Source: Propionibacteriaceae bacterium (lineage in GTDB: Bacteria; Actinomycetota; Actinomycetes; Propionibacteriales; Propionibacteriaceae). From it: DNA of 61,324 nt. Shown piece after piece: positions 7,254-43,791 of this stretch. Location: NCBI GenBank assembly GCA_030532825.1, contig JAUNKK010000009.1, positions 1 to 61,324 on the forward strand, in the 5' to 3' direction. Positions within the stretch are counted from its first letter, which is position 1. The number at the start of each line of letters is the position of its first letter. A program made the translations under genes and the position numbers. The notes beneath the pieces are model-generated. The model was not told where the DNA came from. It made no database searches and worked only from the letters and a program-made list of their open reading frames with translations.

Positions 7254-8261
7254 GTGATGTTCACTCAAATTTCACAGAGCTCAGCGAGTATTGCTTCAGC
7301 GGCTTATCCTCAAACACCTCCACTCGCTATCAAAACCCAAGGGATCACCAAAAAATACGGAAGCCAAACCGTGGTCAGCAACCTCAATATCGCTATTCCA
7401 CAGGGTAGGATCTATGGTTTCCTGGGCCCGAATGGCGCGGGTAAGTCCACCACCATGAAGATGCTCCTGGGACTGACCAAACCAACCAGCGGTGAGATCC
7501 GCATCTTCGGTCGCGACCTGCCTTCCGGCAAGGCAGAGATCCTGCCCAGGATCGGCTCCCTCATTGAAGGCCCCGCCTTCTACCCGCATCTCAGCGGGGT
7601 TCAGAATCTACGCCTTGTGGCCGACTATCTGTCCTGCCCCAAAGGGTCCGTCGAGGCAGCACTTGACATCGTCGATCTCACCAACGCCGCCGAAAAACCA
7701 GCCCGCCAGTACTCCTTGGGCATGAAACAACGCCTTGGCATCGCGATGGCACTGATCTCTGATCCCGAGTTGCTGCTGCTGGATGAACCGACCAACGGCC
7801 TTGACCCTGCCGGAGTGGCCGAGATCCGTTCCCTGATCATCAACCTTGCACGCGAGCGCGGCATCACCGTCATGGTCTCTTCCCATCTGCTGTCAGAGAT
7901 CGAACAGATGGCTGATGTGGTCGGGATCATCCAGGCAGGCCATCTCCGCTACCAAGGCACCTTAGAGAACCTGCGCGACCAAGGGCATCTTGTGCTGAAG
8001 ACCGCTCCGGTTGACGCTGCCGCCGCTCATCTTAAAGCACTGGGACTGCAGCCACAGATCGCTGGAGAGGAGATCAGTGTGCCGCTCCTGAGCGATGACC
8101 TGATTGCTGAGGCCGTGAGCCAGCTCGTCACTGCAGGGGTGCGCATCGCCCGAGTCGAACTTCGGCGCAAGAGCCTTGAGGGAGCTTTCCTCGAACTGAC
8201 GGAGGCTTCCACTGTCATCGCAAAGCCTCAGCCATCCAGAACCCAGAGGAGCCGAGCATGA
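7254..8261 (+). CDS. Lantibiotic immunity ABC transporter ATPase (LanF-type)
   Basis: The 335-aa ABC ATPase has Walker A GPNGAGKST, signature YSLGMKQRLGIAMAL and Walker B LLLLDEPTNGLDP. The roughly 80-residue C-terminal extension is typical of bacitracin/lantibiotic self-protection transporters. GTG 7254 or ATG 7257 follows AAAGGAGC. It overlaps the first permease by 4 bp (ATGA). Its role should be to power expulsion of the mature peptide from the producer's membrane, with the two permeases downstream. Confidence 0.88.
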   Translation: MMFTQISQSSASIASAAYPQTPPLAIKTQGITKKYGSQTVVSNLNIAIPQGRIYGFLGPNGAGKSTTMKMLLGLTKPTSGEIRIFGRDLPSGKAEILPRIGSLIEGPAFYPHLSGVQNLRLVADYLSCPKGSVEAALDIVDLTNAAEKPARQYSLGMKQRLGIAMALISDPELLLLDEPTNGLDPAGVAEIRSLIINLARERGITVMVSSHLLSEIEQMADVVGIIQAGHLRYQGTLENLRDQGHLVLKTAPVDAAAAHLKALGLQPQIAGEEISVPLLSDDLIAEAVSQLVTAGVRIARVELRRKSLEGAFLELTEASTVIAKPQPSRTQRSRA

Positions 8262-15393: not shown

Positions 15394-15555
15394 ATGTTCA
15401 TTCACAAACTGATTGCGGTCACCGCAGCCACACTAGCTTTAACACCCCAGGTCGAGGCTTCCAACATACCCCAAACGGTCGAGATAACGCCGCCCTCTAG
15501 CTCATCTTCCCCGCAGTACCTGTGTCACATTGCCCCTCTCTTCTGCGGCCTCTGA
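15394..15555 (+). CDS. Small secreted Cys-loop peptide, candidate signal for the adjacent kinase
   Basis: A 53-aa reading frame follows a near-perfect AGGAGG site. Residues 1-22 (MFIHKLIAVTAATLALTPQV, EA) look like a Sec signal peptide with likely cleavage after VEA. The mature part is a Pro/Ser/Thr linker (TPPSSSSSP) ending CHIAPLFCGL, where Cys44 and Cys51 could form a small disulfide loop. It ends 11 bp before the preferred histidine kinase start. It has no lanthipeptide leader. I infer a secreted pheromone or sensor partner; it matches no family I recognise. Confidence 0.6.
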   Translation: MFIHKLIAVTAATLALTPQVEASNIPQTVEITPPSSSSSPQYLCHIAPLFCGL

Positions 15556-15566
15556 AGTGCAGCCCA

Positions 15567-16811
15567 GTGAGCTCCCGCACCCCTAAACTGGATTGGATAT
15601 CCAAGAACGCCTGGAAGCAGCAAGGATCAGACTACGCTACTCTCACCCCATGGTGGCTTCGCGTAGGACTGCTCTTAGCAGCTTTGGTGGGATTGGCTAG
15701 CGACGCCACTTCCACTTCCTGGACGCCAGCAAACATCTGGATTATAGTCCAGTTTATTTTATCGTATGCGGCCATTGGCTTGTGCCTTATCTCGATACAA
15801 GCATCGCTCATCCTCTGCGCAATGGCCATGGGAACGACGTTTACCACCCATCTTCCCTTCTTCCCCATGATAGTGGCAACGGTAATCATGCTGGCGATAT
15901 TCACGTTGTTCCGCCACCGCCTAATGGCTATTCACTGGGGCTTGACCATCGCATGGCTCAGCGCAACCATTTGGTTCATAAAGATCAGGGGAATCAGCAG
16001 CGGATCAGCTTTCTGGTGGGGTTCTATCTCGGTGCTCTGTGGCACCAGCCTGGTCGGCCTAGCCCTCCGGTACCTTGTGGTAAGGACGGTCAAGATACGC
16101 CGACAACTAGTTGCCGTCAGAGCCCGCCAAGAAGAAGTGCGTCGCGAAGAACGTCAGCACCTGGCGCGGGAGCTTCACGATGTGGTGGCTCACCACATAA
16201 CTGTTATCACGATGAATGTCATAGCTCACCGGAACTCCCGAGACCCTGATCTACTCCAGGACGTTTTAGGCATCATCGACGACTCCGCTCGCGAGGCACT
16301 CTCTGAGCTAAGAGCGCTACTAGACGTCCTACGGACAGGAGAGAAAGAGGATCCCAAAGCTCTCACCGAACAGATAGACTGCGCCCCAAGCATAAGCGAA
16401 CAGATTGACCGGCATATAGAATCACTAAGAGGATTGGGCTTTGCCATAACCTCAACGGACACCGACCCAAGGGTAGAATCACTTCCTTTCTCGCTCCGAA
16501 ACACATGCGCACGCCTGATACAGGAATCAGTTACCAATATCGCCAAACATGCGCATACAGGAGCAGCCTGCTCCATCGCTCTGGTCGTCGAGAAGACAGA
16601 GGTGCAGGTCAGAATCACAAATTCCCACCCCAAGATCACCGCCCACCAGAGGCCGGGAGGATACGGATTGACCTCTCTCCACGAAAGAGTCACCGCAGTG
16701 AACGGCAGCTACTCATCTGGACTTCGCGGCGATCAGTGGGTGGTAGAAGCCCGCATCCCCATTCACAATTCAGATCCTTCACACTCGACATCCCGAAGGA
16801 ATCCAGAATGA
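15567..16811 (+). CDS. Sensor histidine kinase, NarL/LiaS-type
   Basis: The membrane kinase has about five or six N-terminal helices (from WWLRVGLLLAALVGLASDAT), a HisKA_3 box RQHLARELHDVVAHH with the phospho-acceptor in ELHD, and an HATPase domain (LIQESVTNIAKHAHTG; GGYGLTSLHERV). I chose GTG 15567, just after the small peptide stop; GTG 15522 would overlap that peptide by 34 bp. It should phosphorylate the regulator at 17448 and tune the lanthipeptide genes. The usual direct kinase-regulator junction is broken by about 640 bp carrying an IS remnant. Confidence 0.85.
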   Translation: MSSRTPKLDWISKNAWKQQGSDYATLTPWWLRVGLLLAALVGLASDATSTSWTPANIWIIVQFILSYAAIGLCLISIQASLILCAMAMGTTFTTHLPFFPMIVATVIMLAIFTLFRHRLMAIHWGLTIAWLSATIWFIKIRGISSGSAFWWGSISVLCGTSLVGLALRYLVVRTVKIRRQLVAVRARQEEVRREERQHLARELHDVVAHHITVITMNVIAHRNSRDPDLLQDVLGIIDDSAREALSELRALLDVLRTGEKEDPKALTEQIDCAPSISEQIDRHIESLRGLGFAITSTDTDPRVESLPFSLRNTCARLIQESVTNIAKHAHTGAACSIALVVEKTEVQVRITNSHPKITAHQRPGGYGLTSLHERVTAVNGSYSSGLRGDQWVVEARIPIHNSDPSHSTSRRNPE

Positions 16812-17447: not shown

Positions 17448-18131
17448 ATGGCAGACATCACTGTTCTAGTGGTTGATGACCAGCCACTCATGCTCTATGC
17501 CATGAGGACCCTCCTCGACAACGAGGACGGCGTCTCAGTAGTAGGGACGGCCGAGGACGGTCAGGCAGCAGTTGAACAGGCCCATGCGCTCATCCCAGAC
17601 CTAGTTCTGATGGATCTCAAAATGCCCCGTCTAAACGGGGTCGAAGCCACACGAAGGATCGTCGCAGAGTTGCCCAGCACCAGGGTGTTGGTGATCACAA
17701 TGTTTTCTACGCTAGACCATGTGGTCCCCGCCCTCCGGGCAGGGGCCTCAGGGTATCTGGTCAAGGACGCCCGCGCTGAGGAGATCCTTGCCGCCATCCA
17801 TGGCAGCATGGACGACAACCTGCCGCTGTCCCCCGGCGTCGTGCGCCTCCTAGCTCAACAGGTGATCGGCGGCGTCCATGACCCGAAGGCCGTATCCGGG
17901 TCAGCCGCGACGGAGATAGGCCTGGCGCCCCGCGAGATCTCCGTCCTGCAGCTCCTGGGACGGGGGCTCAGCAACCGTGAGATCGCCAAAGAGATGTACA
18001 TCTCCGAGGGCTCCGTCAAGGCCTACCTGGCCAACGCCTGTACGAAACTCGGCGTCCGCGATCGGCTCCAGGCCCTGATCCGGGGATTCGAGTTGGGCAT
18101 CGTCAGCCCCCGGCTCTCCATCGAGAGTTGA
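17448..18131 (+). CDS. Response regulator, NarL/FixJ family
   Basis: The 227-aa protein has a receiver domain with phospho-acceptor Asp56 (LVLMDLKMPRLNGVE) and the switch region TRVLVITMF followed by KDAR. A C-terminal LuxR-type HTH reads GLAPREISVLQLLGRGLSNREIAKEMY. It is the partner of the upstream kinase and probably activates or times the lanthipeptide operon. Expression independent of the kinase gene is likely because of the IS remnant in between. It is the last gene of the inserted cluster. Confidence 0.9.
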   Translation: MADITVLVVDDQPLMLYAMRTLLDNEDGVSVVGTAEDGQAAVEQAHALIPDLVLMDLKMPRLNGVEATRRIVAELPSTRVLVITMFSTLDHVVPALRAGASGYLVKDARAEEILAAIHGSMDDNLPLSPGVVRLLAQQVIGGVHDPKAVSGSAATEIGLAPREISVLQLLGRGLSNREIAKEMYISEGSVKAYLANACTKLGVRDRLQALIRGFELGIVSPRLSIES

Positions 18132-30390: not shown

Positions 30391-31292
30391 CTACGGGGTT
30401 GCGCCCGGCCCGGATGGTAGGGCTAGGCGGGGGCCGTCGCGGACGGCAAGGCCGTCGATCACGAGGGAATCGACGCATCGAGCCAGTTGGCTGCCGTCGG
30501 GCCAGGCTAGGTCGATGAGCGGCACCGGGCACGGCGAGTCGCGCAGTGCCGCCATGATCTGTCCCCGGCACTGCCGGTCGGTGCCCTCCCAGGCCTGTCC
30601 CACCGGGGTGGGCCATCCCACGCCGGGTACCCCTTCGCCCGCCATGTGCACCAGCGAGTCACAGGGCACGCCTCACATCGTGGCGACCTGGCCGTGCACA
30701 CCGTCGCCCCCAATTCCATCGATGCGGCGGCCCAGGTGGCGGCCAGGTCGTCGTCATTTGGCACGAAACGCCAACCCCGCTTCCGCTCCAGCGTCGTCTC
30801 CGACCGGGTGGGATGAGCCACACCCCCGGCGATGCGGGCCAAGACTCGCCGCACGTTGACATCAAGCACCAGGGAGCGCCGACGAAATGCGAAAGCCACC
30901 ACGGCCGCCGCTGTATAGGCGCCGATACCGGGGAGCGCCAGCAACTCCGCTTCGGTCTGCGGTAGCTCGCCGCCGTGCCGTTCCACGATCACCGACGCGG
31001 CCGAGTGCAGACGCAGCGCCCGCCGCGGATAACCCAGCCGACCCCAGGCCCGCAGCACCTCATCTGGGGCCGCTGCCGCGAGCAATGCCGGGGTGGGCCA
31101 GCGCTCCAGCCAGGACAACCACGCTGGAATGACGCGAGCGGTCGGTGTCTGCTGGAGCATCACCTCACTGACCAGCACACCCCACGGGGTGACGCCTGGG
31201 GCTCGCCACGGCAGCGGCCGGGCCGCGGTGGCAAACCAAGCGACAAGGCGGGCAACCACCTGGGTTTCGTCCCCCGTACTCGCCTCACACAT
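30391..31292 (-). pseudogene. mutY: A/G-specific adenine glycosylase with a C-terminal frameshift
   Basis: The catalytic part (31292 to about 30600) is intact: VMLQQTPTARV with the catalytic Glu, LLALPGIGAYTAAAVVAFAF helix-hairpin-helix, LDVNVRRVLARI with the Asp, and a 4Fe-4S loop C-X6-C-X2-C-X5-C (VCTARSPRCEACPVTRWC). After PAWDGPPRW the frame drifts to nonsense, whereas the next frame continues the family pattern as QAWEGTDRQCRGQIMAALRD to a stop at 30391. A single-base shift near 30595-30615 explains this. The core may still work with an altered tail; sequencing error is possible. Confidence 0.8.
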
Positions 31293-31448: not shown

Positions 31449-32999
31449 CTACGCGTGATCAGGCCGAGGACGGGCAAAGACGAAGGCGATCAGGGCTGAC
31501 CCCGTGATCATGATCCCAGTGAGAAGCAAACAGTTAAGGTGGAGGGCTGTCAGGAAAGCATCAGCCGCCGCGGTCCTTAATGCCGTCTGCTGAGTAGCAT
31601 CAGGAAGCGTAGCTGCAATCTGCTGCGCCGCCATGATCGAGTCTCCAGCCGCTGTCAGAGAGGGTGCTCCAGAGAGCACAGGCGCCATTTCGCTACGATA
31701 GACGTGGGTGAGGATCGACCCCAGGAGGGCAACTCCTATTGTGCCACCAACCTCTCGGATAGAATCATTCACACCAGACGCAACGCCAATCTCATCTCCC
31801 GGCGCAGCAGATAAAATGATGTCTGTCGCCGGGCCCTGAGCGAATGCCAGGCCCATCGCCATGAAGAACATTGCCGGCACCACAACCGCCCAGTATGGAT
31901 TGGTGGCGTTGGCGAATGACACGATCCAGAACCCAACTCCCATCAAGGCGATGCCGAGAGGGATACAGCGCCCAGCACCGAAGCGGCGAGCCAGGAGGGG
32001 AGCAATCGGAGAACAGATCCCCATGATGACTGCAAATGGCAATATTGCCAATCCGGCCTGAAGCGCACTGTAACCGCGCACAGCTTGGAAATAGATCGTG
32101 ATGGTGAAAGTGAAACCAAACAACGAGAAAAACGCCAGACCAATGGCGAAACTACATACCGCGACCTTAGAGGCTTTAAACAGCCTCAGATCCAGCATGG
32201 GCAAACCAACTCGTCTCTCCCATGCGATAAAGACGACTGCTAGCACGATCGAGGCGGTGAAACCTCCAAGGATAGGAAGGGTGAACCAACCAACCTGCGG
32301 GCCTTCTATGAGAGAACCAACGAATAACCCTAGCGCTGCTACTGCTAGAATCACTCCGAGTATGTCAAAACGCCCTAAATTACTGCCCTTGGATTCGGGC
32401 ACGAGGAGTGGTACGAGGGCAGCAAGCGGCAGCACGATCACGACATTAATCAAAAACAGCGCCGGCCACTCGAAGTGCCGCAGGAGCAAGCCGCCAACCA
32501 CGGGACCGAGAGCAATTCCAAGCCCAGCTGTGGCCGCCCAAAGCCCTACAGCCAGGGCATGATGTTTCGTGTCTTTGAATATTATCGAGACGAGAGACAA
32601 GGTCGCAGGAAACACTAGGGCAGCACAGACACCCAACAGCGCCCTTAGTCCAATAAGCACTGCAACGTCACCGGTCATCGCGGAGGCACAGGAAACCACG
32701 ACAAAGCCCAGCAGCCCCAGGATAAGAATCCTGCGCCTGCCTAGCCGATCTCCAAGGTATCCGCAGGGCAACATCAATACAGCGAATACGAGCGTATACG
32801 CGTCTACGATCCATTGTAGTTGCGTGGTAGAGGCGCCAAACACCCGTCCTAAAGTCGGTATACCTACATTGATGATGGTGTTATCCATCACGCCCACGAG
32901 TTCGGCCAGGCAGAGCACTGCAAGCGCAACATACTTGCCCCGGGGATGAGATATCAGCTTTGATTTCGAGGGCCGGGTGCCCGTCGTTTGCGGTTTCAT
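31449..32999 (-). CDS. MFS efflux pump, DHA2/EmrB-QacA type
   Basis: From ATG 32999 (after AGGGGAG) the protein is 516 aa; the longer reading from 33062 has no RBS. About 14 helices and family motifs are visible: LVGVMDNTIINVGIPTLGRV, CGYLGDRLGRRRILILG (motif A) and LGIALGPVVGGLLLRHFEWP (motif C). It sits 63 bp after the KS-CLF gene as the last gene of the polyketide operon, so it most likely exports or gives resistance to the product. Confidence 0.88.
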   Translation of the reverse strand: MKPQTTGTRPSKSKLISHPRGKYVALAVLCLAELVGVMDNTIINVGIPTLGRVFGASTTQLQWIVDAYTLVFAVLMLPCGYLGDRLGRRRILILGLLGFVVVSCASAMTGDVAVLIGLRALLGVCAALVFPATLSLVSIIFKDTKHHALAVGLWAATAGLGIALGPVVGGLLLRHFEWPALFLINVVIVLPLAALVPLLVPESKGSNLGRFDILGVILAVAALGLFVGSLIEGPQVGWFTLPILGGFTASIVLAVVFIAWERRVGLPMLDLRLFKASKVAVCSFAIGLAFFSLFGFTFTITIYFQAVRGYSALQAGLAILPFAVIMGICSPIAPLLARRFGAGRCIPLGIALMGVGFWIVSFANATNPYWAVVVPAMFFMAMGLAFAQGPATDIILSAAPGDEIGVASGVNDSIREVGGTIGVALLGSILTHVYRSEMAPVLSGAPSLTAAGDSIMAAQQIAATLPDATQQTALRTAAADAFLTALHLNCLLLTGIMITGSALIAFVFARPRPDHA

Positions 33000-33062
33000 G
33001 GTTCTCCCCTCTAATCCGACGATGCGTATGGCTAGGCTATGCGCGAACGGCGACACTCCCAC

Positions 33063-35792
33063 TCAAACAACGCGCAGGGCGGAGGCCACCTGGCGGAGGC
33101 GTTCTTCTGGATCGTCGCCATTGAGATCAAAGACCAGCCGTAATCCGCCTGGCGCCGCATGGTCTCCCTGAGTTTCAGATCCCTGATTTTCAGATCCATC
33201 AGACCGCAACCGAGCTACTAGATCAGCCAAATTCACCCCCTCAAAGATGACAGGATGGCAGGCCGTTTCCGGGATAGAGACAACTCTTTCCGAAGCTTGT
33301 GCAACATGCGGGGAAGCATGAGGAACGCGGGCAACCCTAAGTCGATATCCAGCGTTCTGAAACACCGATCGAAGTACTGTTTCAGCAGAGTCAACATCAG
33401 GACCCGCAGCCAATTCGAGAAGGTGTCGGAACGCCCAGAGAGCCCCGTCAGCGCCAAGAGCCGTAAAGCCCCCAGGTTCTAAAGCAACAGATGCACTTTT
33501 TGGCGTAGCCTGCAGATACCCGATGACGCGGTCACCGTCTGTGATGTCGGCCGCTCTCCGCACCACAAGAGAAACGGACGCTTCGACTAAACGCACGGAC
33601 TCGCCAAATTGTCGCGACCAGGCATCAGCGATTTCCGGCGCCAGCACAGCGTTAACTCCTCCGAGCAACACGGCATCTGCGTCATTGTTTCGCAGGATTG
33701 TTGCGGCGGCTCCAACTGCAGCACCAAAGGAAGAGAGATCAGAATCCACCACGAAGTTAGTGCCGCGTAGGTCGAAGCTGTTACCGGCACGACCCGCAAC
33801 AATGTTGTCCATGTATCCGGGCAGCGCCGCCTCGGTGGTTGCGTCGGCTTTGGACGAGAGAACCTCCTGCAAGGCGGTATACCACTTTCGCGATGTGGTA
33901 TTCGAAATCCCGCAGTCTGATCCTGCCAAGGACAGCAGTTCATAGAACTCATCCCCACGAATGCACTCGTTTCGGTGGAGAGCGGCCTCTGAACCAGATG
34001 CCATTGCAACCACAGTCGCGATACGCTCGGGATCATCGACGGTGCGCCCCGACAGCAAACCCGCATCACGCAGCGCCAGAAGACTTGTAGCCAGAAACAG
34101 TTGCTGCGCTCGGTCTGTCTGCTGCAACGTGCTTGGAGGAATTCTCACGTCGCGGACAGGAAACTGGAAGTCACGAATCGAACCATCCCCAGGCAAGGCA
34201 TCCCAAGCCTCTCCAAACTCTGCCCTACCGGGGAGCCCCTTAGTTGCGGAAAGCCCTGGCATAATGATAGAGGCACCGACGACCGCCATCCAGGACCCTT
34301 GCACAGCATCCTCGGTCGTCATGGTCCTAGGCAGCTTCGCAACCAAAGCACGATGATAGGCCTCCTCATACTGCTCCACCAGTACTGATGAGTCCACCCC
34401 ACCGAAGCCAAACGCGTTCGCCATAGCGCGCCGAGGACGATCGGGGTGACGCGGCCAATCACCACCATCCGTCAGTAGTCGCAGTACATCGCGCCGTTCA
34501 GATAGAGCCTGATTTGGCTGTCTTACCCCAAAGGTGGGAAAGAATCGCCCATCCTCCAGACTCAATAGGATCTTCACCAAATTCGCAATACCGGCCGCGG
34601 GAAATCCATGACCAATAAGAGTCTTACCAGAACCAATGATCAACGGCTCTTTGCGGTTATCTTCAGAAATCAGCTGCCCGATGGATTCGATCTCGGTTGC
34701 GTCTCCCGTTGGGGTTCCAGTCGCATGGACTTCCAAGTAGTCGAAATCGCAGGCTGTCACTTCAGCCTGCTTCAGCGCTGCACGCATAGCGGAGACCTGA
34801 CCGCGCGAGGAAGGTGCGTAAATGGCTTTGCCACTACCGTCCGAGCGAGTGGCGGCACCGCGAATTACCCCAACCACCGGATCTTCGTCAGCGATGGCCC
34901 GGTCCAACCGCTTCAATACGACTGCGCCCGCCCCTTCCCCCGGGATCAAGCCATCCGCTTCCGCGGAAAGCGGATGGCTTCCTTGGCCCGACAGCCCACC
35001 GATCTTCGCGAAGGACACGTTACCGACGACACCCATGTTCGCCATGGCTCCGACGGCAACCGTGATATCCAGGTCATCGCGCATGAGGGCAGAGATCGCA
35101 ACATCCACCACCAACAGTCCCGAGGCGCAGGCACCATCGACGAGCGTGGCTCCTCCCGTCACGCCAACGGCCGACGCAACTGTCGGCGCCAAGGCGCTAG
35201 CGAGCACCTGCTTCGAGTAAGGATCTGACCGCCCAAAGAGCCGATCCGCAGCCCTTGACCAGGCAGCGGTCCAAGCCATCGGCGTTGTACCCGCCGGAGA
35301 TCCGACATCTGCCATGAGCGAAGCAAAATAGCGCTCGGCCTGATACCGAAGTGAGTAGTCAGCCAGTTGCTCGTCCCCGAGCATGTTCCCCAGATACAAC
35401 TCCGCCCGGATAGCACGAAGCCTGTCCTGAGTGTAACCGGCGGCAGCAAGGGCCTGGAGAGCCGCGTCAATCGCAAACAATTGAGTGCGATTCGCCAACG
35501 CTATTTGGGAGAGCTGATCCTGATCTAAGCCATAGGAAGCAGGATCGAAACAATAGTCGTCAACGAATCCCCCGAGAATGCAGTAAGTCCGCTCGGGAGC
35601 ACCTCTGTCTTCACTGTAGTATTGCTCGCTATTCCAGCGCTCCTTTGGGATAGGGGTAATCCCCGGGTTTCCTTCAAGCAGATTGTGGCGGTACTCGGCA
35701 AGCGACCTGGACGTAGGAGGAAGCACGCACCCAGCCCCCAGAACGGCGATAGGCAGAAAGGGAGAGCATCCAGGATTGGCTATATAAGGCAT
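33063..35792 (-). CDS. KS-CLF protein, PUFA-synthase (PfaC)-like
   Basis: From ATG 35792 (after GTGGAG, 1 nt past the preceding stop) the protein is 909 aa. Residues about 10-470 are an active ketosynthase: Cys near 222 in VDGACASGLLVVD, His in EVHATGTPTGDATE, and a second His in TLIGHGFPAAGIA. Residues about 480-850 are a second KS fold whose Cys site is replaced (VDSDLSSFGAAVGAA), like a chain-length factor. KS-CLF fusion is a PfaC feature, but the two DH domains of PfaC are absent here. It should condense malonyl units iteratively with the AT-ACP-KR-DH partner. Confidence 0.85.
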   Translation of the reverse strand: MPYIANPGCSPFLPIAVLGAGCVLPPTSRSLAEYRHNLLEGNPGITPIPKERWNSEQYYSEDRGAPERTYCILGGFVDDYCFDPASYGLDQDQLSQIALANRTQLFAIDAALQALAAAGYTQDRLRAIRAELYLGNMLGDEQLADYSLRYQAERYFASLMADVGSPAGTTPMAWTAAWSRAADRLFGRSDPYSKQVLASALAPTVASAVGVTGGATLVDGACASGLLVVDVAISALMRDDLDITVAVGAMANMGVVGNVSFAKIGGLSGQGSHPLSAEADGLIPGEGAGAVVLKRLDRAIADEDPVVGVIRGAATRSDGSGKAIYAPSSRGQVSAMRAALKQAEVTACDFDYLEVHATGTPTGDATEIESIGQLISEDNRKEPLIIGSGKTLIGHGFPAAGIANLVKILLSLEDGRFFPTFGVRQPNQALSERRDVLRLLTDGGDWPRHPDRPRRAMANAFGFGGVDSSVLVEQYEEAYHRALVAKLPRTMTTEDAVQGSWMAVVGASIIMPGLSATKGLPGRAEFGEAWDALPGDGSIRDFQFPVRDVRIPPSTLQQTDRAQQLFLATSLLALRDAGLLSGRTVDDPERIATVVAMASGSEAALHRNECIRGDEFYELLSLAGSDCGISNTTSRKWYTALQEVLSSKADATTEAALPGYMDNIVAGRAGNSFDLRGTNFVVDSDLSSFGAAVGAAATILRNNDADAVLLGGVNAVLAPEIADAWSRQFGESVRLVEASVSLVVRRAADITDGDRVIGYLQATPKSASVALEPGGFTALGADGALWAFRHLLELAAGPDVDSAETVLRSVFQNAGYRLRVARVPHASPHVAQASERVVSIPETACHPVIFEGVNLADLVARLRSDGSENQGSETQGDHAAPGGLRLVFDLNGDDPEERLRQVASALRVV

Positions 35793-35793
35793 T

Positions 35794-36117
35794 TTAACTC
35801 CACTCAGACATTTCAAGGTTCTTGAGAATCCCTAGCGACCTACGCCAATCAGACAAAACGCCGCTATTTGACACGGTGTCGGACGCGACGCAGTAGGCGC
35901 GACTGGCGGCTCTAGATTGGGCTAGAACTCGCCTGAGTCTCCCAGGTTCACTAGGAAGAACTGTCAAGGAATGGACGTCGCATAGCGCCAGCTTTTGAGA
36001 ATCCAAACCTTCCCACGAGACAGACGAGGATCTGAGCATAGCTGCGCGCCACTTATCGCGAAAACCTGTTGAATTTCCTTCCAGCATTCTACTCCTAGGT
36101 ATGCCGCCGATCAACAT
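35794..36117 (-). CDS. Unknown 107-aa protein inside the polyketide operon
   Basis: ATG 36117 lies 2 nt beyond the synthase stop, and the TAA stop ends 1 nt before the KS-CLF start, so all three genes look translationally coupled. This argues it is real despite no recognised family. The protein is basic and Ser-rich (MLIGGIPRSRMLEGNSTGFR at the start; VLAQSRAASRAYCVASDTVS later) with no membrane segment or clear motif. It could be a small subunit or a phosphopantetheinyl-type accessory reduced beyond recognition; I see no evidence for the latter. Confidence 0.5.
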   Translation of the reverse strand: MLIGGIPRSRMLEGNSTGFRDKWRAAMLRSSSVSWEGLDSQKLALCDVHSLTVLPSEPGRLRRVLAQSRAASRAYCVASDTVSNSGVLSDWRRSLGILKNLEMSEWS

Positions 36118-36119
36118 CG

Positions 36120-39100
36120 CTAAGCCGTAGCGTAAGCGAGGTTGCGAGCCACCGTTTGATTGTTCAGCTTCTGCACTACGATCCGCTCGACCCCGATCAG
36201 TGGAGTACCATCGCATTCCGCCACATAAAGCGAAAATGCGTACTGCCCCTGGTTCAAAGGTTGGACCTTAAGGCATCCGAGCACCTCCGTGCTTTCAGGC
36301 GAGGGGCTATTGATAGCAGCGTTCTCTAAACGCACCGGGATGACCTGGTCGCCGAAGCGGTGGAAGATGTCGATCAATGCAAGACGACCCACATTGTCAA
36401 GTAGCAAGGGCTCCGTCGCCAGGCGTGATCCCCCCACCGCGAGGACCTCACGCGCGTCGGCCGAGACATCGAATCGACCCACCATAACCCCCTGGGAAGT
36501 GCGCCAGGCGCCCCGCAGCTTTCGGAAGCTTGGCCCGAATGCGATATAGGACTCGGCGTCTGCATAGTAGGCGTCAAGGTCGAACCTGACCGCTTGGTCC
36601 CTGAGAAGTTCATCCCAGTCGTAGGGGCAGGGAGAAACACTTCTGCGGGGTGATAGCAGCGCCTGCGAGCGCTTGCGCGCTCGTTCCAGGACGATACCGT
36701 TGGGGCTGACTACATCGGCAGATATTGCCGTCATAAAACGATCAGTCCCCTGGCTGGAAACGGCGATTTGCAAGTCGCAAACCCGCCCCTTTGAGCATTT
36801 AACAAAATGCTCAAATTCGGCGGACTCGATCATTAGATCATCGCGCCCCGAAGAAAGCCTCGCTGCCTCAGACATAGCTTCCAAATGGAATACGCCTGGT
36901 AGAGTCGGGGAGCCCTTGACAAGGTGATCCGTCATCATCTTGTCAAGCCTTGTGTCCAGTCGGCGTGCATAAATCATGCCTTCAGCACTTTGTGAGACAC
37001 AAGTATCTAGCATAGGGGAATGGCCCTGATCCACAATGGAGCCACAAATCACCGAATTCGCAATGGCACGACGATCGGGGGTTAAGCAGTCAAGCGCCGA
37101 CCGGGGTTCATTGGTACCCAAAGCTCCGAAGATCATCACCTGGGGATCGGCGCCGCCCGCCAATTCCCGCAGGAAGTGCCGACATCCCTCTTGAGGTGGT
37201 AAATAGCGAAGTCCACGTTGCTGCTCCTGAACCTCCCGAACGCTCTGATGCGTCGCCATCCCGACTTCCGCCCAAGCGGTCCAATCGATGGCGACCATGC
37301 GGACGGCGGGGTAGCGTTGCGAAAGTTGGCAGCACAGGGCAGAAACTGCCGCGGACGCCGCAGTGTAGTCAGTCTGCCCATCCATCCCAAAGCGACCCGA
37401 AATCGATGTGAACGCGACAACGAAGTCAAGTTCCGCAGGGTCAACGGTTCGCAGCAAATTGTGGAATCCCTGGAGCTTGGTCTCGATCAAGCTTGATGCT
37501 AGTGCATACTGCTTCTTTGGGAGCTGACCCAAAGATTCAAGGCCTGCGGCGTGCACAAGACCCCGAATGCCCCCGTAGCGGGAGTGGATGTCCCCCATTA
37601 CCTCAGCGACATCATCCGCATTCGTCACATCGCAGGCGCGATACTCAATCGGGACGGAGGCAGCTTTTATTCGCTCAATACTCCTCTTGAGTTGCCGATT
37701 ATTCGCGATTCGGCGGAACTGCTGCTGCAGTTCTATCGGACGACTCGAGGGACTGCGGCGTCGCAGCATACCTATGATTTCAGATTGAGCTTTGCCGAAT
37801 TCTTCGTCTGTCAATTTAAGGTACGGAAGCGACACGGGATCATCTATTTGCGAACGCCCTAGTATTACTATGGGACTAGGCTTCCCATCAGCAGCGACAA
37901 GGTCACTTTGCGCCAGCCCAATTGCACATTCGAGAGCGATTCCTCGGGACCCCCCCGTGAATACCACTGCCCCTTTGGTGGCCCGACGGTGTTCTGGCGC
38001 ACCGGCTGGAGCTGGTAGGACTTTGATGACATGACGCAGATCACCTAGGTAGCTCACTTCATCGTCTTCAGAGCCGGCCCTGAGTTCTGCTACAAACTTG
38101 TCGGCGACCGAAGCACCTGGCGCATCGTCCACATCCACCAGGCAGAGGTTCAGATTAGTTAGTTCTTTGGCAAGGCTCTTGACGAAGCCAACGCTCAAGC
38201 AGCCCAGCGCATCTCCGTTTGTCGCGGCCTTAAGACCGTACCCGCCGCCGCAGTTCGTCAGAACTGCAATCAAGGCACGATCACCGGCTGCCGACAGATC
38301 TGCGAAGTACTCTTGGTACACACTGAACGTGCGTGCGAAAGAGCGCTGCCAAGCCTCTGAGAACTTCGCTGTGTCGAGGGTCAAGGCATCACGTGGTTCT
38401 GTGTAGCTCGCCAGATCGACTATGCCCTCCCGGGGTCCGCAGCGTTTATGCTCAGCAGCAATGTCTTCAGCCAATGTTGCTTGGTCAACGGCATTGTCCA
38501 GCATCCGCACCGGTGCCGCACTGACCCAGACGTCGGCACCGGCAGCTTCCAGACGGTGTCGCACGCGCTGAGTCAAATCTTGATTGGCCGAAGGCACGAG
38601 AAAGAGGCGGGCGCCACGCAGTTCTCGGGGTTTCCCGGGAGACTGCTTTAAGTCACGCACGAGCGCACGGGGCACGTACCGCAGCGCAATCTCAGTCTCG
38701 TCTCCGGAAGCCGGATCAAGCGCAGTAGGCTCGGGTGGTTTTGTCCCCTCAGGGCGTCCCCCGGTGGCTTGGGCGAGGCGTTCAGCCAACAGCGACACAC
38801 TCACCACCCCATGAAGATCAAGATCACCCTCGACGACCCCATGCCGCCCAGCCACGACAGCAATCACCTGAGCCCGCTTGACCGAATCAACCCCCAAATC
38901 GGCCTCCAAATCCAACTCAGGCTCAATCACATCAGCCGGATAACCAGTCGCCAAAGCAAACTCAGCCACCAACTCACCCACCAAGCTCACGGCAGTAACA
39001 GAACTCGCCACTTCACTCGAAGGCCGTCCGCCAACCAGATCCGAAACCTCCGGCACCACACGCACCTCAGATTCACCCTCATCTCCCCCGTCAGCAGCAT

Positions 39101-40817
39101 GCAAAGGCCCCGATCCACCTGCCGCTTGGGCGAGGCGTTCAGCCAACAGCGACACACTCACCACCCCATGAAGATCAAGATCACCCTCGACGACCCCATG
39201 CCGCCCAGCCACGACAGCAATCACCTGAGCCCGCTTGACCGAATCAACCCCCAAATCGGCCTCCAAATCCAACTCAGGCTCAATCACATCAGCCGGATAA
39301 CCAGTCGCCAAAGCAAACTCAGCCACCAACTCACCCACCAAGCTCACGGCAGTAACAGAACTCGCCACTTCACTCGAAGGCCGTCCGCCAACCAGATCCG
39401 AAACCTCCGGCACCACACGCACCTCAGATTCACCCTCATCAAGTGAGTTGTCACCGCACGCTCCCTCGTCACCCGAGGTGACCGTTTGCAACACCTGATG
39501 ACCATTAGTCTCGTTGAACCGCTCGACGAGTTGTTCCACAGTCCAAGACAGCTCCCCGAAGTCTTGGCCGTATTCATTTTCCAGGCGTGTTCTGAGCTGT
39601 TGCTGTATTTTGGGAACCAGACCGAGTCGATTCAGCGGGCGGTCACAAGGAACGACGTAGCGCGGATACCCAGTGACCGCGCTCACGAGCTCGAGTATTT
39701 TCTCTTTACTGACCTTCGCCGAGGGCAACCCATCGGCTGGCATGCACACTCCTAGACTAGTCAGGTAGAGTCGCACGTGTTGTTCATTCTCCATAGCCGT
39801 CCGTTGGCGCGAGTCCATGGGAACGCAGGAAAGATCCCCCTTCTCCTTTTCAATGATCCCTGTTAATATCTCGTTCGGGCCAACCTCAACGAAGTCCTCA
39901 ACCCCCAACTTGGCGGCTTTACGGAGGAGAGCGTCAAAGTCAAAAGGTTGAATCAGCTGCGCAGATAGCAGATCCGGGAGATTTCGTTCTGTTTGCGGAA
40001 CCACATCACCGGTTATGCTTGACAGGATGGTCACCGATGGAGCATTGAACGTGAGCTCCCGAAGCCTGGAGCGCAGTGGCGCCACACACGGCCTGAGCAA
40101 GGCGCAGTGGTAGGCATGCGTCACCCGAAGCCTGGTTACAGCTAAGCGCTGCTGACCGGCCTCCTGTTCGAAAGCAGCAATAGCCGCTTCTGACCCAGAC
40201 ACGATGCGCTGAATATTAGAATTAATGATGGATTCGGTGATTTCACCCGATGAACTTGCCAGCAACAGAAGTCGCCGGTAGACCCGCTCCTCGGCCTCGC
40301 TCTCGATCCTGACAGCCAACATTTTACCGCGCTGGCTTTCCGGTAGTCGCGACACCTCTTCTGCACGCGCCATCACCGCAGCTAACCCATCTGCGAAACT
40401 GAGCATGCCGCCGGCCACATAAGCGGCATATTCGCCCAGACTATGACCAATCAATACACCCGGGGGAGGCGCGAAAGTCATCAATCGACGGAACAACGCA
40501 ACGCTCGCCGTGAAGATTCCGCACTGCATGGCTGTGGGCGCCAGCAAGGTCGTGGCCGTGGCACCAAGGTCTGTGTAGATGCACTCGGAGAGCGACATTC
40601 CATACCTAGACCGATAGAGACAGTCTGCTTCGTCGAAAACTGAGGATATGGTCGGATCGATCCAACGAAGCTCCGCGAGTTCATTTAAATACTGGCTTCC
40701 ATGCCCAGGAAACACGACTCCATAAGTCGGCTCATCCTGAATTCGAGAGAGGAAAATTCCCTCAGCGCGCAACGCCCGACGTTGCGCAGCAAGATTCCCC
40801 TGATCCTCTTTCAACAT
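36120..40817 (-). CDS. Iterative polyketide synthase: AT-(ACP*)-ACP-ACP-KR-DH
   Basis: From ATG 40817 (1 nt after the upstream stop) the protein is 1565 aa. Domains by residue: AT about 30-335 (Ser126 in GHSLGEYAAY, His237 in HAYH); a degenerate ACP about 371-436 whose attachment Ser is Pro402 (LNRLGLVPKI); ACP1 (Ser526, DLGVDSVKRAQ) and ACP2 (Ser645), identical repeats of the PUFA type; KR about 730-1250 (FTGGSRGI; FTSISGRFGMDGQTDYTAAS); DH about 1270-1560 (TDHLVKGSPTLPGVFHLEAM). There is no KS, ER or thioesterase in cis. KS is supplied by the KS-CLF protein. The chain is probably polyenic or hydroxylated and released by the adjacent alpha-oxoamine synthase (inference). Confidence 0.88.
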   Translation of the reverse strand: MLKEDQGNLAAQRRALRAEGIFLSRIQDEPTYGVVFPGHGSQYLNELAELRWIDPTISSVFDEADCLYRSRYGMSLSECIYTDLGATATTLLAPTAMQCGIFTASVALFRRLMTFAPPPGVLIGHSLGEYAAYVAGGMLSFADGLAAVMARAEEVSRLPESQRGKMLAVRIESEAEERVYRRLLLLASSSGEITESIINSNIQRIVSGSEAAIAAFEQEAGQQRLAVTRLRVTHAYHCALLRPCVAPLRSRLRELTFNAPSVTILSSITGDVVPQTERNLPDLLSAQLIQPFDFDALLRKAAKLGVEDFVEVGPNEILTGIIEKEKGDLSCVPMDSRQRTAMENEQHVRLYLTSLGVCMPADGLPSAKVSKEKILELVSAVTGYPRYVVPCDRPLNRLGLVPKIQQQLRTRLENEYGQDFGELSWTVEQLVERFNETNGHQVLQTVTSGDEGACGDNSLDEGESEVRVVPEVSDLVGGRPSSEVASSVTAVSLVGELVAEFALATGYPADVIEPELDLEADLGVDSVKRAQVIAVVAGRHGVVEGDLDLHGVVSVSLLAERLAQAAGGSGPLHAADGGDEGESEVRVVPEVSDLVGGRPSSEVASSVTAVSLVGELVAEFALATGYPADVIEPELDLEADLGVDSVKRAQVIAVVAGRHGVVEGDLDLHGVVSVSLLAERLAQATGGRPEGTKPPEPTALDPASGDETEIALRYVPRALVRDLKQSPGKPRELRGARLFLVPSANQDLTQRVRHRLEAAGADVWVSAAPVRMLDNAVDQATLAEDIAAEHKRCGPREGIVDLASYTEPRDALTLDTAKFSEAWQRSFARTFSVYQEYFADLSAAGDRALIAVLTNCGGGYGLKAATNGDALGCLSVGFVKSLAKELTNLNLCLVDVDDAPGASVADKFVAELRAGSEDDEVSYLGDLRHVIKVLPAPAGAPEHRRATKGAVVFTGGSRGIALECAIGLAQSDLVAADGKPSPIVILGRSQIDDPVSLPYLKLTDEEFGKAQSEIIGMLRRRSPSSRPIELQQQFRRIANNRQLKRSIERIKAASVPIEYRACDVTNADDVAEVMGDIHSRYGGIRGLVHAAGLESLGQLPKKQYALASSLIETKLQGFHNLLRTVDPAELDFVVAFTSISGRFGMDGQTDYTAASAAVSALCCQLSQRYPAVRMVAIDWTAWAEVGMATHQSVREVQEQQRGLRYLPPQEGCRHFLRELAGGADPQVMIFGALGTNEPRSALDCLTPDRRAIANSVICGSIVDQGHSPMLDTCVSQSAEGMIYARRLDTRLDKMMTDHLVKGSPTLPGVFHLEAMSEAARLSSGRDDLMIESAEFEHFVKCSKGRVCDLQIAVSSQGTDRFMTAISADVVSPNGIVLERARKRSQALLSPRRSVSPCPYDWDELLRDQAVRFDLDAYYADAESYIAFGPSFRKLRGAWRTSQGVMVGRFDVSADAREVLAVGGSRLATEPLLLDNVGRLALIDIFHRFGDQVIPVRLENAAINSPSPESTEVLGCLKVQPLNQGQYAFSLYVAECDGTPLIGVERIVVQKLNNQTVARNLAYATA
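38767..39083 (-). repeat. 317-bp perfect direct repeat, copy 1 (ACP2)
   Basis: Identical base for base, by eye, to 39124-39440 (offset 357 bp = 119 codons, in frame). It encodes an ACP plus its linker. Confidence 0.95.
39124..39440 (-). repeat. 317-bp perfect direct repeat, copy 2 (ACP1)
   Basis: Partner of 38767-39083, separated by 40 bp of unique linker. Zero differences, including third codon positions, indicates a recent duplication or ongoing gene conversion. Confidence 0.95.
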
Positions 40818-40818
40818 A

Positions 40819-42009
40819 CTAGATGACTCCCTTCTCGCGGGCAATATCGCTGATCACAGAGATCGATCGGTCGATGTCATTCTTATCCAAGAGCGCTGTC
40901 ACCGTTGTTCTGAATCGGCTCTTTCCCTTCGGCACAGCCGGGAAGGCGGCAACAGAAAGAAAGATCCCTCGGTCACGCGCCTCTTGCGTCATCTGCATCG
41001 CCAGATCATCGTCGCCGATGGGGATCGGAATAATCGGAGACACCCCTGACTCAATAGCGAAACCTTGATCAATCAGACTTTGCCGAAAGGCAATCGTATT
41101 GCTCCAAAGTCGCTCACGCAGCTCAGGCCGTTCACGAATCGCTCGGAGAGCCGCAGATGCCCCACCAACGAGCACCGGTGGAAGGCTGGCATTGAAGATA
41201 TAGCCGTGAGCAGCATGCCTGATATAGTCACAGATTTCGAGGCTGGCAGCTACAAAGCCCCCCGAAGCCCCGAAAGATTTACTGAGAGTTCCCATCAGGA
41301 TATCAGGCTTGATGCCAAAGTGCTCACAACTACCCCGCCCGGTCTCCCCAAAAACACCAATGCCATGCGCATCATCCACCATGAGCAAGGCTTCATAGCG
41401 CTGACATAAGTCCTGGATTTCCTCTAGTGGGGCAAGGTCGCCATCCATGGAGTAAACTCCGTCAACAACAACGAGACGACACTCATACTTCTTGTTACGC
41501 TGCAAGATTTGTTCCAACTTTGCAAGGTCATTATGTGGGAAAATTCGAAGTTCTGCTCCCGATTGCGCGCAACCATCGGCTATGCTTTGATGATCAAACT
41601 GGTCGACGATGTAAACTGTTCGAGGACCGCCAAGCGCAGATAAGGGCGCAACATTTGCAAGGAAACCCGAACTGAATAGTACAACGTCATCGAAACCCAA
41701 CCACGCCGCCAGCTCTTCCTCGAACTCTCGATGCAGCAAAGTTGTGCCGTTGTGCAGTCGGGCACCACACGTCGACAGACCGTACTGTTGCAAGACCCGC
41801 TGCGCCGCGGCGATCACTTCCTCATCAACGCTGAGCCCAAGGTAGTTGTTGGAGGTCAGCATGACCACAGTTTCCCCCATAGCCAGTTTCGACGTGTTTC
41901 GCTGGGCGCTAGCGAGGACTTGCCCGTACGGATAGGTTCCCTCAGCCATCCCTTGTCGCACAACGGTTGAAATTTCACGGAAGCGGCTGGCGTAGCTGGC
42001 GTTGATCAT
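40819..42009 (-). CDS. Alpha-oxoamine synthase (AONS/KBL/SPT-like), polyketide release enzyme
   Basis: From ATG 42009 (after CGGAGT) the protein is 396 aa; GTG 42057 is an alternative. PLP-enzyme motifs: LTSNNYLGLSVDEEVIAAAQ, GTTLLHREFEEELAAWLG, VVDGVYSMDGDLAPL, DDAHGIGVFGETGRG and TLSKSFGASGGFV, whose Lys binds PLP. Such enzymes condense an amino acid with an acyl thioester with loss of CO2, giving an alpha-amino ketone. As first gene of a coupled operon with a synthase lacking a thioesterase, it probably releases the chain. A stand-alone biotin role is unlikely because no bio genes are near. Confidence 0.88.
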   Translation of the reverse strand: MINASYASRFREISTVVRQGMAEGTYPYGQVLASAQRNTSKLAMGETVVMLTSNNYLGLSVDEEVIAAAQRVLQQYGLSTCGARLHNGTTLLHREFEEELAAWLGFDDVVLFSSGFLANVAPLSALGGPRTVYIVDQFDHQSIADGCAQSGAELRIFPHNDLAKLEQILQRNKKYECRLVVVDGVYSMDGDLAPLEEIQDLCQRYEALLMVDDAHGIGVFGETGRGSCEHFGIKPDILMGTLSKSFGASGGFVAASLEICDYIRHAAHGYIFNASLPPVLVGGASAALRAIRERPELRERLWSNTIAFRQSLIDQGFAIESGVSPIIPIPIGDDDLAMQMTQEARDRGIFLSVAAFPAVPKGKSRFRTTVTALLDKNDIDRSISVISDIAREKGVI

Positions 42010-42153
42010 ACGAACTCCGAGACTTGTGCGGCGGTGCGTCTTGGTGGATAGTACCACAATCTGATTGGCCGGGCCACCTGGAAGCCCCGCATTTATCGAG
42101 CAATACTGGGGGCGTGGCGTCCAACGGAGTGTAGGAAGTGCTACTATCTACTT
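42010..42153. promoter_or_regulatory. Divergent promoter region of polyketide operon and merR
   Basis: The 144 bp between the two starts hold a near-palindrome at 42042-42059 (GTGG atagta CCAC core) and TACTAT boxes on both strands (42142-42147 for merR, just 7 bp before its ATG, suggesting a leaderless message). The merR product may act here. Confidence 0.4.
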
Positions 42154-42810
42154 ATGTCAGCCACAACGACTCACGAAAGAGAGCCGGCTTCCATCTCGGC
42201 ACTGTCACGGAGGTCCGGCCTCTCCGTCGCCACGATCAAGTACTACATCCGCGAGGGTTTGATCCGCTCAAACCAGGACCTTGGAGCAGACGAGGCGGAG
42301 ATCGTTGACCAACTGAAGCTCATCCGGGGGCTTGTGCACGTCGTTGGGCTGTCAATCCAACAGGTCCGCGAGGTGCTCAACTTGGTTAGGAACCCGACGG
42401 CAGATCCTGCGACCTCAATGACCAGCGCGACTATGGTTCTGCCACTGGCTGGAGCCCGGGTGTCTGATCCAATCAGCGACAGCCTCGACTTCAAGGATGC
42501 CCGCGAGGCCCTGGCCAGTGTTGGCTTCGACGAGCTACCGGATGCCCCATATGTCGCTCAGCTTCTCTCCGCCATAACACTGGCTGGTGAGTGCGGCGCT
42601 GGCTTCGACACCGAACACCTGGCCGCTTACAGCCGTGCCGCTCGGGAATGCGCCGAAGCTGACTTCAAGCATCTCCCGTTGGATTCACCGATTCGCGCGG
42701 CCCAGGTCGCCGTGCTAGGCACCGCAATCTACGGTCCGGTTTTGGTCGGGTTGCGGCGTCTGGCTCATAGGGAACTCACCAACCGTCTCCCCACTGCCAT
42801 GAACGAGTAG
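42154..42810 (+). CDS. MerR-family regulator
   Basis: The 218-aa protein has an N-terminal MerR winged HTH: SISALSRRSGLSVATIKYYI, REGLI, then ADEAEIVDQLKLIRGL and LSIQQVREVLNLV. The C-terminal half has a helical sensor domain without an evident metal-binding Cys cluster (a single Cys pair is far apart). It is divergent from the polyketide operon and 12 bp before an oxidoreductase gene, so it may control either. Confidence 0.85.
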   Translation: MSATTTHEREPASISALSRRSGLSVATIKYYIREGLIRSNQDLGADEAEIVDQLKLIRGLVHVVGLSIQQVREVLNLVRNPTADPATSMTSATMVLPLAGARVSDPISDSLDFKDAREALASVGFDELPDAPYVAQLLSAITLAGECGAGFDTEHLAAYSRAARECAEADFKHLPLDSPIRAAQVAVLGTAIYGPVLVGLRRLAHRELTNRLPTAMNE

Positions 42811-42822
42811 GAGGTATCAGAA

Positions 42823-43791
42823 ATGCCGAACGAAACCCGGACCCTTGCTGTGGTCCAGGCAGCCCAGTACCTACGTTTTGGCCCGCCTGACGTGTTGCAG
42901 GTCACGGAGGCCCCGGGTCCACAGCCTGGCCCGCTCGATGTCGTGGTGAAAGTCACCGCCATCAGCGTTAATCGGATTGACACCACTGCACGGGCTGGTC
43001 AGAGCAAGTTCATGACTGGACGCCATCTACCGCAACCTACCGGTCTGGACTTCAGCGGGGTGGTCGTTGACCTCGGCACAGAGACGCATGGTTTTACGTT
43101 GGGGCAGCGCGTGTGGGGTTTCCTCGGCACTGATCGCCTAGGGAAACAAGGCACCGCAGCAACCCACATCGCGGTGGACGCGGACCTCGTCGCACCGGCA
43201 CCCACCTCTGGGAAGCTAGCCGACCTTGCCGCTCTCCCCCTGGTCGGCGTCACATCCTGGCAGGCACTCGAAGAACTGGGCGTCGTGGCTGGCTCGCGAC
43301 TGCTCATAGTGGGTGGCGCTGGCGGCGTGGGAAGCACAGCCATTCAGTTGGCTCGGGCCCGCGGTGCACACGTTGACACCATTAGTTCAGCGAGGCACGA
43401 AAAACTGCTGCGGCAGTTGGGGGCTGAATCCCGATTCGACCCAGACGCCGTACCATGGTCGACGCTGGGCGACCGTTATCAGGCGGTCTTCGACACCACC
43501 GGCAAGCACCTGCGGCAGTTGCGGCGCATCGCCCAATCGGGGCAGTTCATCACGATCTCGCCGAGCGGGGTTCCCATGAGCTTGCTGTCCAAGGTCCTGC
43601 CCGGGCCCACAATCAAGTTCATGTCCGTTCAACCTAACCGCACCAGTCTCGCGGCCCTCACCGATCTAGTTGAAAGCCAACAGTTGATTCCGATCATTCG
43701 GGCGCGGTTCCCGCTCTCCGAGATCGCCCAGGCACATGCACTCGTTGAGACCGGACATGGCGCCGGGAAGGTCCTCGTCGACATCGGTTAG
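42823..43791 (+). CDS. Zinc-independent quinone oxidoreductase / alcohol dehydrogenase-like (MDR)
   Basis: The 322-aa medium-chain reductase has the GroES-like N-domain (PLDVVVKVTAISVNRIDTTA; TGLDFSGVVVDLG) and an NADPH Rossmann motif RLLIVGGAGGVGSTAIQLAR. It lacks the zinc-binding Cys set of alcohol dehydrogenases, matching QOR-type enzymes. It lies 12 bp downstream of merR after AGGAGGT, hence one operon; an electrophile or quinone detoxification role is plausible. Confidence 0.85.
   Translation: MPNETRTLAVVQAAQYLRFGPPDVLQVTEAPGPQPGPLDVVVKVTAISVNRIDTTARAGQSKFMTGRHLPQPTGLDFSGVVVDLGTETHGFTLGQRVWGFLGTDRLGKQGTAATHIAVDADLVAPAPTSGKLADLAALPLVGVTSWQALEELGVVAGSRLLIVGGAGGVGSTAIQLARARGAHVDTISSARHEKLLRQLGAESRFDPDAVPWSTLGDRYQAVFDTTGKHLRQLRRIAQSGQFITISPSGVPMSLLSKVLPGPTIKFMSVQPNRTSLAALTDLVESQQLIPIIRARFPLSEIAQAHALVETGHGAGKVLVDIG

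Follow-up and report, generated by a model that had tools for sequence, protein, structure and literature searches.

How a presumably iterative polyketide synthase (PKS) with no thioesterase beside it releases its chain is the question raised by a small gene cluster in a 61,324-nt stretch of DNA from Propionibacteriaceae bacterium (GenBank assembly GCA_030532825.1, contig JAUNKK010000009.1, positions 1 to 61,324). This whole stretch, referred to here as the window, corresponds to contig C102 in a genome of 3.33 Mb and 219 contigs, estimated to be 97.5% complete. On its minus strand the cluster comprises, in this order, an alpha-oxoamine synthase (AOS), a PKS with acyltransferase (AT), pseudo-acyl carrier protein (psiACP), two acyl carrier protein (ACP), ketoreductase (KR) and dehydratase (DH) domains, a ketosynthase–chain length factor (KS–CLF) protein and a DHA2-family efflux pump of the major facilitator superfamily (MFS). 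The answer proposed here, which we consider reasonably likely, is that this is a mobile cluster for an exported polyenyl alpha-aminoketone, assembled by an iterative polyene synthase of the polyunsaturated fatty acid (PUFA)/enediyne type and released by the AOS; such an amino-lipid would be a new one.

The original prediction, an earlier reading of this DNA, had described an operon of AOS, PKS, KS–CLF and efflux pump genes, and its coordinates, domains and motifs agree with those found here. It had also stated that the window contains no thioesterase, and none was detected by Pfam among 22 window proteins. Its gene set was incomplete, as a MerR-family regulator and an MDR-type oxidoreductase, both transcribed divergently, also go with the operon. 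The AOS is the first operon gene and is separated from the PKS gene by 1 nt, while 63 nt precede the ATG of the pump gene. The enzyme frames are all open and, as read from their translations, carry intact motifs. The four operon genes have a foreign composition in the window, with a GC content at third codon positions (GC3) of 0.57–0.59, compared with 0.69–0.70 in the divergent MerR and MDR genes and 0.72–0.85 in seven neighbours.

The KS motifs DGACAS, EVHATGT and GHGF (Cys/His/His) are all present in the KS–CLF protein. Its C-terminal part alone matches the ketoacyl synthase N-domain of Pfam (E 1.1e-18), with the catalytic Cys region replaced by VVDSDL, which bears out the earlier assignment as a KS–CLF protein. 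The PKS carries the AT motifs GHSLG and HAYH, LGVDS in both real ACPs, the KR motifs GGSRGI, Ser and Tyr, and the DH motif DHLVKGSPTLPG. The domain order AT-ACP*-ACP-ACP-KR-DH proposed earlier thus stands for the AT, the two ACPs, the KR and the DH, but the first carrier resembles an ACP at the motif level only (LGLVP in place of LGVDS), with no Pfam ACP match. The two ACPs lie in a direct repeat whose 317 nt are exact, so the duplication is very recent or an effect of the assembly. No integral enoylreductase (ER) was found by Pfam in either synthase protein. In NCBIfam, PKS_plus_SDR (NF045894) and PfaA rank in the top three for both proteins, all below their cut-offs.

A published parallel for this domain set is RerA of Rhodococcus erythropolis PR4, which likewise combines KS, AT, two tandem ACPs, KR and DH with no ER and, with the PPTase-TE (phosphopantetheinyl transferase–thioesterase) partner RerB, makes conjugated polyenes of up to C22 (PMC11563203). 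The same inventory is found in the window. However, RerA is a single KS-AT-ACP-ACP-KR-DH polypeptide and RerB carries a thioesterase, whereas the window synthase is split and has no thioesterase, and a PPTase-like gene is seen only in a relative described below; this comparison covers two of the approximately 39 genes of that cluster (PMC11563203). Secondary lipid (Pfa-like) synthases, Types A–T, share KS, CLF, ACPs, KR, DH and a nearby PPTase in split and fused rearrangements, and the words 'oxoamine' and 'aminotransferase' are absent from the main text of the paper that describes them (PMC3098273). The cluster departs from the Pfa/PUFA type, as it has two ACPs rather than several and no match to a PfaD-type ER among the proteins scanned. 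Enediyne PKSs (PKSE) join KS-AT-ACP-KR-DH-PPTase in one protein and are accompanied by cassette genes. The corresponding domains lie here on separate proteins, and the cassette genes were not searched one by one.

That the separation of KS and AT is unique was rejected. Three or more further loci from the same order or class (L022 of G222, L067 of G535 and L077 of G533) encode AT-ACP-ACP on one protein beside KS–CLF on another, as in the window. They differ in that KS–CLF is fused to SDR, KR and DH in L022 and to KR and DH in L067, while L077 has SDR-KS-CLF with a separate KR-DH protein; no AOS match was found in the stretches examined of these three loci. A further locus, L078, belongs with them as an observation in its own right: all four encode KS–CLF with KR and DH, some with an SDR before the KS, and show no AOS match.

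The whole arrangement recurs in Propioniciclava flava VG341 (NZ_PPCV01000001.1, G034:C11 in this analysis, 584,125 bases), which belongs to the family of the window (Actinomycetes, Propionibacteriales, Propionibacteriaceae) and to another genus. All six genes match in the same order, with the identities given in Table 1, but they sit elsewhere in the chromosome: seven window neighbours were compared with the 32 kb of P. flava examined, and none has a match there. GC3 is about 0.80 in the P. flava operon enzymes and pump, like that of its own genes, and 0.71 in a PPTase-like gene within the cluster. This suggests to us that the window genome acquired the cluster recently and that the P. flava copy is older or matched in composition; the cluster has very probably moved horizontally. 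P. flava also has an SDR gene on the far side of the pump (L019, 7587–8261) and, immediately following its MDR gene, one for an aldo-keto reductase (L020, 740–1639). Both were left out of the shared set because neither has a match anywhere in the window, although they could act on the cluster product.

The two copies differ between the PKS and KS–CLF genes. The original prediction had placed a gene for a 107-aa protein there and had given the first four genes a spacing of 1–2 bp. That spacing holds for the open reading frames (ORFs) but not once the 107-aa ORF is set aside: the KS–CLF gene then starts 327 nt after the PKS stop codon. The GC content of the 107-aa ORF is flat across codon positions (0.50/0.54/0.53), and its codon score of -0.06 is below all 63 in-frame windows (mean 0.098, minimum 0.016) of the cluster genes, which also served as the training set, and falls among those of 126 out-of-frame windows, which average -0.122 and reach -0.003 at most. 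For this ORF, neither Pfam nor NCBIfam gives a match at E 10, and nothing in the P. flava stretch matches it either. A functional 107-aa subunit was rejected on the codon statistics, and the earlier gene call is not sustained.

In P. flava, the same interval measures 788 nt and holds a 263-aa ORF with no match anywhere in the window. PPTase models of NCBIfam match it weakly (EntD, E 0.01; AusB, E 0.15), the best Pfam match is 4PPT_N at E 6.8, and PF01648 misses it in the P. flava genome, though detecting two other genes. A PDB search gave nothing relevant, and its AlphaFold (AF2) model is unusable (mean pLDDT 34). Nevertheless, it is 29% identical over 153 aa to the C-terminal domain of a class-level synthase protein (L073; E 5e-6 among 23 loci, 5e-7 among 2), and that domain is an ACPS-family match at 2e-19; the ORF resembles a second such protein as well (E 8e-5). 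This homology to a profile-confirmed PPTase domain is what is expected of an Sfp-type PPTase. By eye, it has a P1a-like (QGRP) and a P1b'-like (ASVSH) motif, as described for secondary-lipid PPTases (PMC3098273). These similarities point to a PPTase-like gene in P. flava, and because it occupies the same slot, the window copy has probably lost its PPTase gene.

Such a loss, together with the foreign composition, the non-coding-like slot and the freshly duplicated ACP region, would also fit a decaying, non-functional acquisition that makes nothing in the window genome. This explanation appears decidedly unlikely, as the enzyme frames remain open with their motifs intact, and activation of the ACPs in trans is possible because four ACPS-family matches are found elsewhere in the genome. 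As a separate observation, another contig of the source genome (G000:C125) has several KS matches in very long frames, of the modular PKS type, and an ACPS-family match of its own.

Regarding release, the AOS carries the motifs DHQSI, DDAHG and LSK in both genomes and matches Aminotran_1_2 (E 5.6e-52); the PLP-binding Lys, the stacking His and the DxxH of the alpha-oxoamine synthase family are all in place. It is not assigned to a single isofunctional group (BioF, KBL, SPT or ALAS). The closest solved structure is a serine palmitoyltransferase (SPT, E 5e-81), and the best PDB matches, 3A2B and 8GUH, are SPT structures named in PMC12134224. At the position equivalent to residue 79 of ThAOS, the cluster AOS has Ala, where KBL enzymes have Val and SPT has Ser; in ThAOS, the V79A change raised efficiency, and L-Ser gave the highest activity (PMC11906848). 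A tree of 13 rows separates the two cluster AOSs from the KBL-like enzyme of the genome and nine others (fork support 89/100). A primary-metabolism KBL enzyme was rejected as the main explanation, because another gene of this genome (L002) is KBL-like and bears the Val signature. When 396 genomes of the phylum were searched, seven, including the source genome, had an AOS match at E 1e-85. Three of these (44–45% identity) have no PKS match in wider stretches, and for the other three the check covered L048, in a 4-kb locus.

AOS release from an iterative PKS has been demonstrated in Pseudomonas fluorescens MYb115, where PfSgaAB makes sphingolipids and its AOS, which has SPT activity, uses L-serine almost exclusively in preference to alanine and glycine (PMC12134224). 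As in the window, an iterative type I PKS lies beside a stand-alone AOS; in the window the adjacent PKS is presumed to be iterative. Serine is the favoured substrate of the cluster AOS on these likenesses. However, PfSgaAB consists of a single monomodular PKS, forms C24–C28 sphinganines and is accompanied by a putative KDS reductase (PMC12134224), whereas in the window KS–CLF is a protein of its own, split from AT-ACP-ACP-KR-DH, and MerR, MDR and an efflux pump are present.

AOS enzymes are found in other PKS settings as well. In fumonisin biosynthesis, an AOS joins the chain to an amino acid. Fumonisin, AAL toxin and sphingofungin are PKS-derived sphingoid-like products of fungi, with an unrelated gene organisation (PMC12134224). 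AOS-type PLP domains also act with carrier proteins in PKS/NRPS assembly lines, one of them modelled on SPT 3A2B (PMC3870968), but they are fused into the assembly line, whereas the window AOS is a separate protein. Another actinobacterium, Streptomyces sp. NBC_00158, has on a plasmid (NZ_CP108162.1; L057, 11202–15239) a PKS with an SDR-AOS fusion and an MFS pump; that locus has at least three KS matches and an annotated thioesterase, and its AOS lies elsewhere in the tree, on a long branch, with Val at the key position.

The position of the AOS as the first operon gene, and the lack of an identified loading domain, would also suit an enzyme that supplies the starter unit, an aminoketone or amino acid-derived acyl group, instead of releasing the chain. 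This role seems very improbable. The products of AOS enzymes are ketones rather than thioesters, and the priming of a KS would need further enzymes; the conserved set contains none that would allow it and no other release enzyme.

A different outcome would be a saturated or mono-unsaturated sphingoid base for lipids, made as by PfSgaAB, with the MDR acting as a trans ER in every round and the AOS using serine to give 3-ketosphinganine. The MDR is kept beside the operon, and among 147 genomes of the family, homologues at E <1e-100 occur only in the two that bear the cluster, three others reaching 1e-41 to 1e-46. This conservation, which counts for the main proposal as well, the SPT-like AOS, the PfSgaAB precedent and the P. 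flava SDR or aldo-keto reductase, either of which could reduce the ketone, all speak for it. Nevertheless, we judge it unlikely. PfSgaA is a single monomodular PKS, the P. flava reductases have no counterpart in the window, and no separate KDS reductase-like SDR was seen among the scanned cluster genes. The MDR gene is divergent from the operon, and among solved structures its product best matches a quinone oxidoreductase, with the ER domains of PKS and fatty acid synthases (FAS) lower in the list. Moreover, the presence of an efflux pump points to an exported product, not to a lipid of the membrane. A polyene is the better prediction than a saturated sphingoid base because the synthase has no integral ER.

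The polyenyl 2-amino-ketone is the leading prediction because of the RerA-like domains, the PfSgaAB precedent, the lack of a thioesterase and the SPT-nearest AOS with its Ala. It is also what remains of the original proposal of an iterative synthase with amino-ketone release: the recurrence of the gene set as a unit, the separate KBL gene and the PfSgaAB precedent strengthen it, while the saturated sphingoid product is less favoured than the polyene. The final product might instead be a polyenyl heterocycle, the AOS joining an amino acid to a beta-ketoacyl- or polyenoyl-ACP and the product cyclising to a pyrroline or pyrrole, or dimerising to a pyrazine. TamD, an ACP-AOS fusion, is hypothesised in a conference abstract to give a product that cyclises to the tambjamine bipyrrole (PMC4698589), and an aminoketone from ThAOS was trapped as a pyrrole (PMC11906848). 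On the other hand, the conserved set includes no dedicated cyclase or oxidase gene, and such a heterocycle is not separable from the linear aminoketone by sequence alone; we consider it improbable.

In both genomes, two palindrome copies near GATAGTAGCACTATC lie between the divergent AOS and MerR genes. None of 100 shuffles of the P. flava locus was as good, and a whole-genome scan with at most one mismatch to GATAGTRSCACTMTC located the palindrome there at both cluster sites and nowhere else. With one mismatch, the scan of the window genome returned copy 1 and a single site on a different contig; copy 2 deviates by more mismatches. The presence of one copy 5 nt 5' of the MerR start in both genomes suggests an autoregulated MerR operator. 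In the window, the other copy covers an upstream GTG (42057); ATG 42009 is therefore the probable AOS start, and it agrees with the one in P. flava.

The combination of this synthase type with an AOS appears confined, in the collections searched, to the two members. At E 1e-60, 3 of 391 genomes of the order were found (the source genome, P. flava and G222), and an alignment (A1) found 41 of 394 genomes of the class, including the source genome. No AOS match at E 1e-3 turned up in G222 or in the 20 neighbourhoods opened among the 40 others of the class; contig ends cut several of these stretches. In contigs of 84,980 species, a single-protein pattern scan returned nothing and missed P. flava too; a two-row alignment gave 79 pattern matches, one of which, in P. 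flava, encodes a relative, the two octapeptide patterns being insensitive. None of 134 pattern matches in viral contigs encodes a relative, the plasmid protein matches listed are all below 60% identity, and a DNA search of plasmids gave none. In the open-licence papers searched, no PUFA/enediyne-type synthase is described with an AOS, in keeping with the earlier statement that no described cluster with this exact split was known, though the KS/AT split itself has precedent. One of the 6,101 SgaAB homologues reported in PMC12134224 could have this architecture. Precedents are published for each half, PfSgaAB for PKS with AOS and RerA/RerB for the tandem-ACP polyene synthase, and what is new here is plausibly a variant of PKS/AOS coupling.

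The pathway that we infer from the genes runs from iteration and a polyene chain to AOS release with an amino acid, and to the roles of MDR, MerR and pump. The AT would load malonyl units on the tandem ACPs, and the KS–CLF protein would extend the chain iteratively in trans. The KR and DH would act in every round, and as the synthase has no ER of its own, the chain held on the ACP would be a conjugated polyene. The task of a thioesterase would fall to the PLP-dependent AOS, which would condense the polyenoyl-ACP with an amino acid, with loss of CO2, to free a 2-amino-3-keto-polyene; with serine, this would be a polyene 3-ketosphingoid base. The MDR may reduce the enone beside the new ketone or act now and then as a trans ER. 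Export of the product would be through the MFS pump, the divergent promoters would be under MerR control, and a PPTase encoded elsewhere would activate the ACPs in the window genome.

Several observations weigh against this reading. The cluster is known from two members only, and the window copy, which appears to be without a PPTase gene, may be decaying or silent. The tandem ACPs are not a fixed feature, because a single ACP is detected in the P. flava PKS. The AOS has no NCBIfam match over a curated cut-off among the 25 matches listed of 52, the fork that sets it apart in the tree is below the mark of the tool, and the enzyme could act on acyl-CoA instead. Its Ala79, which differs from the residue in KBL, SPT, ALAS, AONS and Alb29, merely permits larger side chains. 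In the window alone, 3 of 100 shuffles gave a palindrome as good, and chance may account for it.

The cluster adjoins a frame at 30507–31292, which we take from its appearance to be a MutY-like adenine glycosylase; its last ~35 residues look out of frame by eye, and it may be truncated. A second lower-GC block (7254–18131) resembles a class II lanthipeptide cluster (Table 1), with no clear precursor candidate among ORFs of at least 30 aa at 9600–10150, the region examined.

Table 1. Features of the window, with positions in the whole stretch and the evidence for each.
Feature	Position	Strand	Evidence or remark
DHA2-family MFS efflux pump	31449..32999	-	ORF open from 33062; TIGR00711 241.6 bits (cut-off 230.2); 73% identity to P. 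flava
KS–CLF didomain protein	33063..35792	-	ATG 35792, GGAG upstream; Pfam ketoacyl-synt in two stretches; 61–63% identity to P. flava
Apparently non-coding 327-nt gap holding 107-aa ORF	35793..36119	-	Codon statistics; no family match
AT-(psiACP)-ACP-ACP-KR-DH polyketide synthase	36120..40817	-	Pfam AT, PP-binding, KR, PKS_DH_N, PS-DH; 57% identity to P. flava overall (52–58% by piece)
Tandem ACP duplication	38767..39440	-	Exact 317-nt repeat, period 357 nt (39124–39440, 38767–39083)
Alpha-oxoamine synthase (AOS), 396 aa	40819..42009	-	Start ATG 42009; BioF/KBL/SPT-type matches; 76–77% identity to P. flava
Putative MerR operator, copy 1	42047..42061	+	GATAGTACCACAATC
Putative MerR operator, copy 2	42134..42148	-	5 nt before MerR start
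MerR-family regulator	42154..42810	+	PF13411, E 1.1e-9; 68% identity to P. flava, same divergent position
MDR resembling quinone/enone oxidoreductases, a candidate enone reductase or enoyl reductase in trans	42823..43791	+	PF08240/PF13602; 59–60% identity to P. flava
ABC transporter	7254..8261		Lanthipeptide-like block
LanM-like DUF4135/LANC protein	10094..12865		Lanthipeptide-like block
C39-peptidase ABC exporter	12862..15093		Lanthipeptide-like block
Histidine kinase	15522..16811		Lanthipeptide-like block
LuxR-type response regulator	17448..18131		Lanthipeptide-like block

The broader proposal, for which we see the case as evenly balanced, is a new release logic for the PUFA/enediyne lineage: a split polyene synthase would offload its chain through a dedicated AOS to give exported polyenyl alpha-aminoketones (polyene sphingoid-like pigments or antibiotics), under a MerR switch, from a six- to seven-gene cassette that passes between genera of Propionibacteriaceae. 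If true, the cluster would be a compact, testable system of PKS/AOS coupling, with three synthase proteins plus a PPTase, and AOS release on polyene synthases would hint at a class of nitrogen-bearing polyenes in small-genome actinobacteria.

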